Shown here piece after piece: positions 1,436-11,135 of a stretch of 33,544 bases of DNA. This DNA comes from Saprospiraceae bacterium. GTDB lineage: Bacteria > Bacteroidota > Bacteroidia > Chitinophagales > Saprospiraceae. The notes beneath the pieces are model-generated. The model saw only the letters and a list, made by a program, of their open reading frames with translations. It was not told where the DNA came from and made no database searches. Each line of letters begins with the position of its first letter. The first letter of the stretch is position 1. The position numbers and the translations under genes were made by a program. The stretch is taken from contig JAAUTG010000011.1 in the NCBI GenBank assembly GCA_012031785.1, positions 1 through 33,544 of the forward strand, written 5' to 3'.

Positions 1436-2018
1436 TACATAGAATTTTATTATGAATTATTGACTTTGAAATTGAATGTAATATAGGTAAATATAGTTAA
1501 TTTAAAAAGAATTATGAATATTTTGTTGTTAAAGTGATGTAAATAAGAACATATCGGGAAATTAAATTTGGTTTCAAGTAATAATTCGTTGTGTCCAGGA
1601 CTTAACGCGCTGCCCTTTAGCCTGTGGTAGCAGGCTTTACTCTTTTTAACCCTTTGTATGTGTTTGCCTTCGGCGATTTTTTTTTGATGGATGGAGTTTC
1701 CTAGCTCCATCCGCAGGTATTTTTTGCGTTTCCTAGCGCATGTGGCGGCTGGCGCGTTAGGAAACGAGCAGGATAGGTTGCGCCGATGTGAAGAAACATC
1801 GGCAATCGGTTTTTTGTCTTTTGTAAGCCCCATGTTTCAATTCCGCCAGTGTAATTAAATACCAATCGTTCCAAGTTTTAGTAGCATTGTTTTGAATTAA
1901 ATTTAAGTATGAACGATTCTGTATTGATTCAAATCCCCTTCTCTTTGTGTTTTCAGCTTTCGCCACACGCTGAACCAGAAAACATCACCTGCTATGGCAA
2001 TAGCGGTGAGCAATAAAT
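1436..2018. other. Gene-free stretch between GH5 gene and sbcC, with hairpin cluster
   Basis: No credible gene was found. Frames that stay open across 1450-1966 are of low-complexity, non-coding character and include the artificial extension of sbcC past its true stop. The part from 1619 to 1815 contains several stable stem-loops, described separately. The rest (1436-1560) is AT-rich upstream DNA of the GH5 gene, without a clear TAnnTTTG box. Confidence 0.6.
1619..1815. repeat. Cluster of four strong stem-loops, unknown role
   Basis: Four GC-richer hairpins occur within 200 bp. They are AGCCTG/CAGGCT (1619-1624, 1631-1636), GGATGGAG/CTCCATCC (1689-1696, 1705-1712), a 13-bp stem with one G:T pair (1727-1739, 1754-1766), and GCCGATGT/ACATCGGC (1782-1789, 1796-1803) followed by T6 at 1810-1815. 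The second hairpin's loop and the third's stem share the string TTTCCTAG. No plus-strand gene ends here, so a simple terminator does not explain them. They could be REP-like repeats or a structured RNA; I do not recognise the family. Confidence 0.5.
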
Positions 2019-5000
2019 CTATCCTACTACTTTGACTTCGCTGAATCCATTGGCTTTTTTTTTGTACTTGTATTTGAGTGGAAATGCGTTCTTTGAGCGC
2101 TTTTACGTGCGAAATGATGCCTATGGTTTTGCCGGTAGCTTGTAAATTCTCTAGTGTAGTGATGGCGATTTCTAAGGTGGCTTCATCCAAAGTGCCGAAG
2201 CCTTCGTCAATGAAAAGTGAACGAATTTGAGTATTATGTCCCGCCAAGTCGGAAAGTCCGAGTGCCATTGCTAGGCTAACTAGAAAACTTTCGCCACCTG
2301 ATAGGGTCTTCATGGAACGAGTGTGGTTGGCTTGAAAAAGATCAATAATGTCTAGTTCTAAGGCTTCCCCTTCGCGCTTGCGAATGTAGTAGCGGTCATT
2401 TAATTTTTTTAGGTGCTGATTGGCGTAATGAACAAGTTGTTGCAAGGTAAGGCTTTGTGCAAAAACTCGGAATTTTTTTCCGTTTTTCATTCCAATCACG
2501 TCGTTTAGCTTTTTCCAGCGTTGGTATTCTATTTTTTGTTGCTCGTACTTACTTTGTAGTGTTTTCAATTGCTCGATGAGGGTACGTTGCTGCTCGAGTT
2601 GTTTTTTCAGGCTGCCCACATTTTGCAGCGATTGCTGGTAGCTTTGTTCTAGTTCGGTTTGTTTTGTCAAGATTGTATTTTCTGATGCTGAAGTCAGTGT
2701 TTTGGCTTGTTCTTGCACAAGTTGTTGCTGGGTTTGTTGTAGAAGTTGTTGAGAATGGGTGTATTGTTGACTTAATTTTTCTTTTTGCTGTTGTAGGTTG
2801 TTAGCTATTTCTTCAGAAAGCAACGCGGCTTTTACTTCATTTAATTGATGGAATCCGTTGGCTTTGATATTGGTTAATAGGGTGTTTTGTAGTTGTTGTC
2901 CTTGCGCTTGGAGTTGCTGTAACTGTGTATTGTGAGTATTTTGAGTAGCTTGTAGCGCGGCGATTTCTCGCTGGTGCGTTTGAGTTTGGATGCGCAAATG
3001 CTCGCAGTGTTGCTCGGTGGCTTGTAATATTTGTTGGAAAGCCTTTTTTTCGTGCTGTGGGTCTTTGTCTCCTAACAATTGAGTGCGCTCGCGTTGTGTT
3101 TCTAGCAAAAGCGTTTCTAAAGTTTGCGTTTGTTGCTGAAGTTGTTGTAGGTTTTCGCTGCGTTCTTGTAGTTGTTGAGCAATGGATTGGAGTTGTTGTT
3201 GTTGTAGGCTTCGCTTTTCTTTTAATTGCCGAGTCTGCTCGCGGGTGGCTTTAAATTGAGCGAGTTGTTCCTGTAATTTTGAGTGTGCATTTTGCAGATT
3301 TTGGTCTGTTGCACGGTATTTTGATAAGTAGGTTTGAGCCGTAGCTAGAACGTTTCGTAACTCTGCATCTGCCTCTTGTTGTTGTTCTTTTAGTTGTTTG
3401 AATTGTTTAATATCTGCTTGAATGGCGGCTATCAATTCTTTTTGTTTGTTTTCTGCACTAGCTTGTCGGGTTTTCTTGTACTTCCAGCCGTGCGTTCACT
3501 TCTTGTAGTTGCGCGAAATTTTGTTCCAATCGCACGATTTGGATTTGATAATTTTCAATTTGGGTGTGCAAAGCATCTAATTCCCAAAAAATGGTCTCGG
3601 TAATGGCTGCTTCCTGAATGTGTTGTTGAAGTTGAAGTAGTTTGATGGACTTGGTATTCAGGGCTTCAGTTAAATGGGTTAGTTGATTGGTTGCCACTGC
3701 TTTTGCTTGCTCCGAAGCAATCAATTGCTTTTTCAGGTTTTCCAGTGCTTTTTCTGCCGTCTTTAACTTGTTTTTTGGCTTCATCCACGTAGGTTTCATT
3801 CCAATCGAGGTCGCGGAATGGATGTTGTGTGGAACGGCAAACTGGGCAAGGGTCGCCAGGTTCTAGTTTACTGCGTTCTCGCTCCAAGTTAGTGCTGGAA
3901 AAAGCACGCTCTAACTCGTAATGGCGTTGGCTAATTTCGTATTGCTTTTGGAGGTTAGGTAATTGTGCTTCTTCTATTTTTAAGGTAACTAGGGTTTTAT
4001 CTAGGGTTTGCTGAACGCGCTGCATCTGTTTGTCTAAATCATCCAATTCAGATTGGGTATCGGCATATCCTTGTAGGCGGGTTACAAATTCTTTTATTTG
4101 TTGTATTTGCGCTATTTTTATAGGTTATTAAGTGGGTGCGTTGCGGGAATTTTTCTAGTTCCTGTGGCGTGACGATTTTTAATAAATCTTTCATGAAATC
4201 TGCTACACAAGCCTTTGCGTCCGAGACTTCTTTTGCTAGGAGGTGTTCCGATTTTTCCTTTTCGAGAAGGGATTTGCCCAACGTCTCTTGAGATTGTTTT
4301 TGTTTGGCAATAGTGGTTTCCAAGTAGGTGGCTTGCTGCAACTGCAATGCTAAAGTAGGTAAATCTTGTTCTAAATCCTCGCAATCACGGTTCTTGTTTA
4401 GCCAAATTTCTAGTTCAAGAATTTGATTTTCAGTATTTTGATGGGTTTCAAAAAGTTGTTGCTGTTGTTGTTGTTCTTTTTGTTGTTTGTTGTTTTTAGT
4501 CGTCCAATCTTTTTGTAAATGGGTGAGTTCCAATTTTTTCTGCTGCAAATTAACATCGAGTTGAGTTACTTTTTCAAAGCGTGCCAATTGCTCGTCGCGT
4601 TGACTTTGTAAAGTATCAAGTTGTTGGTGGGCGGCATCAAATTTTTCTTGTACTTCTTCCAATTGCTGTTGCAGTACGGTTTGGGTGTTTTTACTTTCTG
4701 CAATCGTTATTTTTAGCTGGTCGCGTTCTGCAATCATTTCGTTCAAACGTAGAAGCTGTGCTTGGAAGGGGCTTGCCTTTTGGTGCTTTGCTAATTTTTC
4801 AAACTGGTTGGCTTGAGCGTGTTGGGCTTCCTGCACTTGCTGAATCTGGTTGTTTAATTCTTCTACTTTTGCTTGAAGTACAGACAGATTTTGCAACCAT
4901 TGGAGTTGTTGGCGTAATTCTTCCAATGCTTTTTTGTGCAACGCTGCTTGTTGTGTAAAGGTATCGAGTTGTTGCTGTATTAAGGAAGGGTCGTCGGTTT

Positions 5001-5655
5001 GTAGCGCATGAAGTTGTTGAAACTGGTCTTTATATTGGTTTAGTTGCTTTTCTTCTTCTGCGTGTCGCTCGAAAGCTGCCTGAGAAAGTTTGGTGTAGTA
5101 TTCCGTACCCGTGATGCGCTCCAAGAGTTCGCTTCTTTCTTTTTCATCTGCCCTCAGGAACGCAGCAAAATCGCCTTGTGCCAGTAAAACTGATTTGCAG
5201 AACTGGTTGTAATCCAGCCCTGTGATTTCTTGTATTTTGATTTCGTAATCCCTGGCGCGGTCGTAAATAATTTTAAAGTTGCTTGTTTGTGCGTCCCAAC
5301 GAGAAAGTTCTCTTTTGGCAGGCTGTACATTGCCATCTGTTTTGTTGCGCGATTTCCATAAAGTCCATTTAGAGCGATAAATATGTTTATTTGACTCAAA
5401 CTCTACTTCTGCCAGACTTTCTGTACTGCCATAGGACATAATTTCTTTTTCGTTGTCGTTGCGATGTACCTTGCCGTATAAAGCTAAGGTAATAGCATCC
5501 AAAATGGTTGTTTTTCCTGCACCTGTGTCGCCCACAATAGCGAAAATACCCGCATAATTCAGAGGGGCAGTAGTAAAATCAATCTGAATGGTTCCAGTTG
5601 TTTGGGTAAGTCTTAACGAGTTGAGGTTACGAAGTGTTATCTTTCTGATTCTCAT
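2019..5655 (-). CDS. sbcC: SbcC/Rad50-type nuclease ATPase subunit (four probable indel errors)
   Basis: ATPase subunit of the SbcCD double-strand exonuclease, which clips hairpins and blocked DNA ends. Walker A (GDTGAGKT, residues 42-49) lies near the N-terminus. Two very Gln-rich coiled-coil arms flank the zinc hook CPVC at about residue 602, almost exactly mid-protein. The C-terminal half carries the ABC signature (LSGGES) and Walker B (LFIDEGFGTLDE). The frame is broken four times by one extra base, each in an A tract of the coding strand: 4115-4119, 3771-3776, 3471-3474 and 2055-2063. Removing one base at each gives about 1210 residues ending in a typical QKKANGFSEVKVVG tail and a TAG at 2019-2021. 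No sbcD lies next to it, which is unusual because sbcD normally precedes sbcC. The upstream neighbour is a kinase-like gene. Identity is certain; whether the gene is intact depends on the indels being errors. Confidence 0.9.
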
Positions 5656-10715: not shown

Positions 10716-10934
10716 ATGAGTTATTAAAAATCTCCCAAAGAAAAGAAAAATTTAGTTGAGATTTTATCTAAAATAGGGAACAAATACGATAAAATTATTT
10801 TTCAATTTGTAAAAGTTGAATTTTTGTCCGCTTTTGATTGGATTACGCTTAATTTTATTTGGAATTATTTAAGTAAAGAAGTGATTTTAGGCAATATAGA
10901 AGTAGAAGATAGGTGGAGAGGCGAAAGTATATAG
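10716..10934 (+). pseudogene. Possible small ORF with stop at codon 4
   Basis: An ATG directly abutting element E3 is in frame with a TAG 72 codons later, but codon 4 is TAA and there is no other in-frame ATG. The remaining 68 codons look protein-like (for example AFDWITLNFIWNYL, then a charged GNIEVEDRW tail). They match nothing I know. It may be a decayed gene, a sequencing error at codon 4, or chance in AT-rich DNA. A stem-loop (10933-10964) overlaps its end. Confidence 0.2.
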
Positions 10935-10964
10935 CGGACAAACGGCTTTGCTCGTCTGTCCGCT
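10933..10964. terminator. GC-rich stem-loop, weak terminator candidate
   Basis: AGCGGACA (10933-10940) pairs perfectly with TGTCCGCT (10957-10964), and a further ACGG/TCGT pairing lies inside after one mismatch. The stem is strong, but no T tract follows on either strand. Its role as a terminator for the RND operon reading leftwards is therefore only a guess. Confidence 0.3.
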
Positions 10965-10990
10965 GTAGTTCTGTATCGTATTGATTACAG

Positions 10991-11135
10991 AGGTTACGCA
11001 ACTGATTGCTTAGTGGTAAGGTTGTTCAACAAAGTTGTATTATTGAAAGGAATAACTTTCAATAAATGGTCTAGCATAAGACTTTAAAACGAACGCTTAA
11101 TACCCTTACAAATTACCAATCTAACTGCGTAACCT
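10991..11135 (-). repeat. Palindromic intergenic element, copy E4
   Basis: The ends AGGTTACGCA (10991-11000) and TGCGTAACCT (11126-11135) are perfect inverted repeats, and weaker complementarity continues inwards. The minus strand carries the core: GTTCGTTTTAAAG is the reverse complement of 11082-11094, followed by TTATGCTAGACCATTT and GAAAGTTATTC. The element starts six bases after the stop codon of the RND pump gene, in the same orientation as that gene. Confidence 0.65.

Follow-up and report, generated by a model that had tools for sequence, protein, structure and literature searches.

A probable DGR target-gene remnant and an inverted pair of two-hairpin repeats in the intergenic DNA between sbcC and a GH5 gene of a Saprospiraceae bacterium

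The DNA analysed here, referred to as the window, is a stretch of 33,544 nucleotides from a Saprospiraceae bacterium (assembly GCA_012031785.1, contig JAAUTG010000011.1). Near one end, a GH5 ORF and an ORF with an SbcC domain border, as the initial annotation had noted, an intergenic cluster of strong hairpins (1619-1815) for which no gene was apparent. The cluster had been described as more GC-rich than the surrounding intergenic DNA and measurement agrees, with a GC content of 0.477 for 1619-1815 versus 0.194 for 1436-1590 and 0.333 for 1816-1902. The four stems that had been listed are present at the positions given for them.

1435 (start), minus strand: GH5 ORF
1619-1636, plus strand: stem 1, the post-VR hairpin, AGCCTGT-GGTA-GCAGGCT, 7 bp with one G:T pair adjoining the loop
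1689-1712: stem 2, GGATGGAG-TTTCCTAG-CTCCATCC
1725-1740: stem 3, TGCG-TTTCCTAG-CGCA
1782-1803: stem 4, GCCGATG-TGAAGAAA-CATCGGC
1903-3435, minus strand: ORF with an SbcC Walker B domain

The sequence TTTCCTAG, reported as common to two stems, is indeed found in stems 2 and 3, and the stem said to contain a G:T pair is probably stem 1, in which such a pair is present; stem 2 also gains a G:T when folded as DNA. In a fold of the entire stretch, bases 1727-1739 of stem 3 switch partner to 1754-1766, forming a 13-bp stem. A 127-aa ORF on the minus strand that spans the cluster (1450-1833) has no Pfam match. The adjacent sbcC (2053-5655) is read in frames -2, -3 and -2 relative to the 1,207-aa SbcC of a congener, reflecting frameshifts or assembly errors, and homology to SbcC stops at 2053 whereas the ORF extends to 1903. 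SbcCD cuts DNA hairpins.

The region 1600-1830 folds more stably than all 200 of its dinucleotide shuffles on each strand (z = -3.58 and -2.96 for the plus and minus strands, respectively), and the z scores for 1685-1810 folded as DNA are -4.77 and -5.31. Lone short hairpins fold more weakly (z = -1.51 for 1605-1640 and -1.22 for 1655-1690). In a scan of 209 tiles of 200 nt, with 12 shuffles each, the plus strand of 1616-1815 has the lowest energy and the second-lowest z, and the minus strand has the second or equal second energy with a z outside the six lowest. A folding energy like that of shuffled sequence and an absence of conservation had been named as grounds for dismissing the cluster, and neither was found. 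A search of the genome with 1600-1830 matches 13 places, the window itself counted. There were no matches to the cluster by blastn against phages and plasmids, by exact-pattern scans of viral contigs and genome contigs or in Rfam, searched with the whole window at the gathering score and with 1430-1910 at E ≤ 1. Elsewhere in the window, 10896-11095, located between listed ORFs, also folds strongly on both strands (z = -6.48 and -5.13); the covariance model of the repeat described below finds no unit within it.

One of the 13 places, C345:2239-2301, is on a contig of the same genome that carries a diversity-generating retroelement (DGR). In such elements, a template RNA is copied with adenine errors and the cDNA is homed into the VR, aided by a downstream DNA hairpin. 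C345 has domain matches to FGE-sulfatase, bAvd and RVT_1, and a 114-bp pair consisting of VR 2129-2242 and TR 3764-3877 that has 18 mismatches, 16 at TR adenines; an RT, an accessory protein and a TR/VR pair with adenine-specific changes are therefore all in place. The FGE-sulfatase matches are spread over two ORFs in different frames and the RVT_1 match is in the second of two ORFs at the place expected for the RT, split frames that may be the result of decay or assembly error. DGR hairpins are described as having a 7-10 bp stem and a 4-nt GRNA loop, and as positioned 4-34 bp after the VR (PMC3240598). The C345 hairpin (2257-2274, AGCCTGC-GGTA-GCAGGCT), ~18-20 nt past the VR end, conforms to this rule, although together with its T-rich tail it could be an ordinary terminator.

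The window sequence 1591-1664 aligns with C345 2229-2301 over 74 bp with 86% identity and so is homologous to the 3′-end and flank of the FGE-type DGR target gene on C345. The real query scores 86 bits, versus at most 27.4 bits for 300 shuffled queries. The homology begins within coding sequence and continues through the hairpin of stem 1, the counterpart of C345 2257-2274.

1591-1605, plus strand: end of a probable lost DGR target gene, four codons and a stop (V S R T stop), in the same register as C345 2229-2243 (V S R A stop)
1637-1662, plus strand: T-rich stretch TTACTCTTTTTAACCCTTTGTATGTG 3′ of the hairpin, aligned with C345
1664-1685, plus strand: terminator-like hairpin of 5 bp with a run of nine T, in place and kind as C345 2313-2337

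The codons are GTG TCC AGG ACT TAA in the window and GTA TCC AGG GCT TAG in C345. The terminator-like hairpin, which has the loop TTC in the window and GAA in C345, falls outside the BLAST alignment, which ends at 1664. With a 7-bp stem and a GGTA loop that fits GRNA, positioned 20 nt past the VR remnant, the window hairpin resembles, as does that of C345, the DGR target-site hairpin/cruciform of the BPP-1 type, from which the window differs in having neither a VR nor a gene body and in the G:T pair that closes the loop (PMC3240598). The gene body is missing 5′ of 1591, where the reading frame is closed and the GC content over 1436-1590 is 19%; because homology ends at ~1591, leaving the locus without a VR or a target gene, we refer to it as a stub rather than a target. 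Genome-wide at E ≤ 1, the flank is matched only by C345, its TR and the window, and with just two copies of the DGR flank, one of them that of the window, the stub status rests on one comparison. Almost all of the matched flank is beyond the VR/TR homology and cDNA homing, therefore, cannot have placed it in the window; the flank presumably arrived together with a target gene. Region 1591-1685 is thus probably a DGR target stub, comprising the codon end, stop and downstream hairpin of a gene that would once have been a working DGR target and would have been lost through deletion or replacement next to GH5. The earlier suggestion that the cluster is the scar of a mobile element is supported for 1591-1685 by the C345 homology, except that the source would be a DGR target gene and not a transposon. 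Neither an empty nor an intact allele of the site was found; in the congener G003, sbcC and GH5 are on different contigs and the sequence upstream of GH5 has no clear match to the window site.

Five relatives with a related RT were sampled, and in none of the four of these in which a scan detected a VR/TR pair was there a hairpin that conforms to the published rule. A query consisting of the VR plus flank matched 6 of 198 genomes, the source genome included, and, among the best three candidates per genome, the post-VR hairpin was covered in none of the other five. The relative G063 has a match to part of the C345 flank past the hairpin; by eye, the DNA around this match is different, and the stretch viewed shows no DGR. 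Behind the VRs of two relatives' DGRs, after 2315 in L159 and after 2274 in L160, there is, by eye, a T-rich stretch near TTTTTTACCTTTTTAC that resembles the flank in C345 and the window.

The remainder of the cluster, 1683-1810, consists of two copies of a ~60-bp unit in inverted, head-to-head arrangement, each with the order hairpin alpha, GATA-type spacer, hairpin beta, ATC. It is this part that the places matched by the genome search with 1600-1830 have in common, C345 apart, and a single kind of unit makes them up. Alpha has 5-6 bp around TTAGGAAA and beta 6-8 bp around TTAGGAAA, in some cases with a mismatch; in the window units, stems and loops have drifted. Both window units, with the scores given here, are among the 18 rows from which the covariance model, R1, was built.

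1683-1743, minus strand: left unit, alpha 1725-1740, beta 1689-1712; R1 63.8 bits, E 9.8e-13
1750-1810, plus strand: right unit, alpha 1752-1769, beta 1782-1803; R1 67.7 bits, E 9.6e-14

Independently of R1, blastn with 1600-1830 locates the right unit region at further places in the genome, with identities of up to 88%. R1 has 20 matches in its own genome, of which 18 are the building set; the remaining two are weak matches of 38.1 and 27.2 bits. The assembly, a draft, consists of 440 contigs with 86% completeness, and 17 of the 20 matches are on seven contigs shorter than 10 kb. In the alignment of the 18 units, 94.4% of the cells are paired and there are 32 compensatory cells, with change at 8 of 16 pairs. 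None of 500 shuffles equals the alignment in paired percentage, compensatory cell count or covariation score, one reaches the count of changed pairs and 90 the number of pair types; as the structure was drawn from the same 18 sequences, it is biased in its own favour against slid controls.

Matches to R1 are present in 16 of 248 genomes of the family, the source genome included, considering the best 21 candidates per genome. Counts in the others are at least 21 in G243, 15 in G081, 14 in G302, 8 in G236, 5 in G076 and 3 in G298; weak single matches (E > 1e-4) may be chance rather than relatives. An earlier R1 search of 60 genomes had found the source genome and one weak match in a congener (E 4.5e-4). 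From 61 matched places, 40 stretches selected by the model were taken from five genomes (the six above without G076), yielding 50 matches, 47 of them distinct. In the alignment of these 47 copies, 96.8% of the cells are paired and 175 are compensatory, values reached by none of 500 shuffles, and slid controls are far lower; among the five measures, the numbers of changed pairs (148 of 500) and of pair types (240 of 500) do not go beyond the shuffles, and the alignment, having been fitted to R1, leans towards the model. The spacer contains GATA in 15 of 18 own copies and 39 of the 50 others (ATA in 18 of 18 and 48 of 50), and most loops are NGGA (35 of 50 in alpha, 43 of 50 in beta). The sequence flanking the unit is not conserved in 20 copies of G243 or in 16 own copies, and the unit is, therefore, discrete. 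Inverted pairs are seen in G081 as well as in the window. A crude ORF caller provided a gene context for 45 of the 50 matches, with 25 between unidirectional, 6 between convergent and 6 between divergent genes, 3 inside an ORF and 5 unresolved. The unit thus constitutes a repeat family, a searchable two-hairpin DNA unit common to several genera of the family.

The 12-base core CGTTAGGAAACG, which has 23 matches in the source genome, one each in 23 others and none in the rest of 298, was considered as a sequence private to the genome and rejected; the apparent privacy is misleading because other genera retain GTTNGGAAAC with different stems. GTTAGGAAAC alone, though clustered, is not commoner than its reversed control (33 versus 34).

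Across the 18-unit and 47-copy alignments together, Watson-Crick pairing accounts for 991 cells, G:U for 7 and other mismatches for 40, so that 7 of the 998 cells with a standard pair are G:U. The share of G:U among the non-Watson-Crick cells is 11% and 17% in the two alignments versus 17% in shuffles. A constrained RNA should tolerate such pairs, and an excess of them over shuffles is not seen; this points towards a structure that is used, or maintained, at the level of DNA, on either strand, and stem compensation in the repeat accordingly looks DNA-level, not RNA-level. Hairpin-templated repair could give such compensation without selection. Given also the lack of an Rfam match and the mixed gene contexts, the proposal that the cluster is a structured RNA was not borne out.

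A REP-like array had also been proposed, and for 1683-1810 this is correct in part. As in REP/BIME, the unit is small, palindromic, mostly intergenic and dispersed, its stems vary between copies and it is paired head-to-head or tail-to-tail; it differs in having two different hairpins in a fixed order, a GATA-type spacer and a terminal ATC, and in the absence of a RAYT beside the sampled copies (PMC3733652). REP/BIME are known as GTAG and CGTC families (PMC3733652). Within the unit plus 6 nt on each side, GTAG is nearly absent (none of the 18 own copies and 1 of the 50 others, 1 of 68 in total) and GTGG is present in 5 of 18 and 4 of 50 (9 of 68), a minority that is the weak point in concluding that the unit has no hairpin-foot tag of the GTAG/GTGG or CGTC kind. 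CGTC is found in 10 of 18 and 20 of 50 copies (30 of 68) and, on inspection, lies within the stems and not as a tag at their foot. The literature searched, to the extent that its text was accessible, contains no description of an alpha-GATA-beta-ATC repeat. A possible likeness to integron attC was also considered.

A phmmer search for Y1 genes beside the sampled copies, in which two Y1 proteins were compared with 1,074 ORFs from 61 loci, some overlapping, that carry or surround units or weak matches, gave no match. As controls, the Y1 transposases encoded on C99 and C102 of the source genome were recovered and the interrupted gene on C219 was missed, and broken or distant Y1 genes would, therefore, escape the search. 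The Y1 genes on C99 (L083 2231-3091) and C102 (L084 3000-4100) adjoin arrays of other short hairpins, near which TTTGTAG occurs. Their motifs resemble those of subclass 1.2, Y1 transposases that are described as generally without IS200-type ends (PMC6006769). For a reading of the repeat as a MITE or IS200-IS605 derivative, no parent element was found. With no Y1 ORF among the 61 loci, the participation of an HUH transposase acting in trans is no more than an inference.

The hairpins could all be ordinary 3′-end architecture, terminators or stabilisers of mRNA ends, with the C345 likeness due to a shared terminator cassette. The nine T behind the hairpin at 1664-1685 and the T-rich stretch behind 1619-1636 fit such an origin, but we consider it unlikely, as the C345 homology starts within coding sequence and in register with the stop, and the repeat units have no conserved T-run behind them and are in mixed gene contexts. 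The NGGA loops and the strong covariation of the stems would suit a regulatory RNA, as paired hairpins with such loops are taken here to resemble a CsrA sponge; with G:U not above shuffles, Rfam without a match and unit flanks unconserved, a sponge-like RNA is very improbable. A further concern is that the short contigs bearing most of the repeats are binning contamination and that the window copy was transferred from the contaminating organism, and stretches from six of the seven have GC contents of 0.39-0.46 (window 0.395). Repeats, however, break assemblies and would also give rise to short contigs, two copies are on the 33.5-kb contig of the window and a congener has the one weak match; contamination is thus distinctly unlikely.

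The explanation that we prefer, and consider probable, is that 1591-1815 (plus strand) is a composite intergenic scar of a DGR target-gene stub and an inverted pair of a two-hairpin DNA repeat. Its first part would derive from a second, stand-alone target gene of the genome's own DGR, as a 3′ stub retaining the coding end, stop, post-VR hairpin and terminator; with the VR and the rest of the gene gone, the hairpin has nothing left to serve. The second part is the head-to-head repeat pair, with the stub on one side and the 3′-end of sbcC on the other, and the repeat may spread as single-stranded DNA hairpins, perhaps through an HUH (Y1) transposase acting in trans. The parts of this composite are ordinary in kind; the architecture of the repeat is new. 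In Thiohalocapsa PB-PSB1, hairpin-forming MITE-like arrays replaced DGR components (PMC10907252), and in the window, similarly, hairpin-forming repeats occupy the place of missing DGR parts; the PB-PSB1 repeats correspond to the termini of IS elements present in that genome (PMC10907252), whereas a parent of the window repeat was not found. A bolder reading, improbable in our estimation, is that alpha-GATA-beta-ATC is a new family, within Saprospiraceae, of minimal hairpin DNA transposable elements, with half of a putative ssDNA transposase dimer bound per hairpin, that its arrays invade DGR loci and dismantle them and that the stub is broken at the 3′-end of the VR because DGR cDNA integrates there. 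As the probable composite scar, 1591-1815 is an example of an apparent DGR target gene reduced to its homing hairpin, and the repeat, if mobile, would serve as a test case for hairpin elements that lack the usual REP tags. At one further locus (L174, G052:C95), the clustered weak R1 matches consist, on inspection, largely of a beta-like hairpin that belongs to a larger repeat; the three ORFs listed there do not look transposase-like, and the array adjoins a small ORF that gives the impression of an antitoxin.
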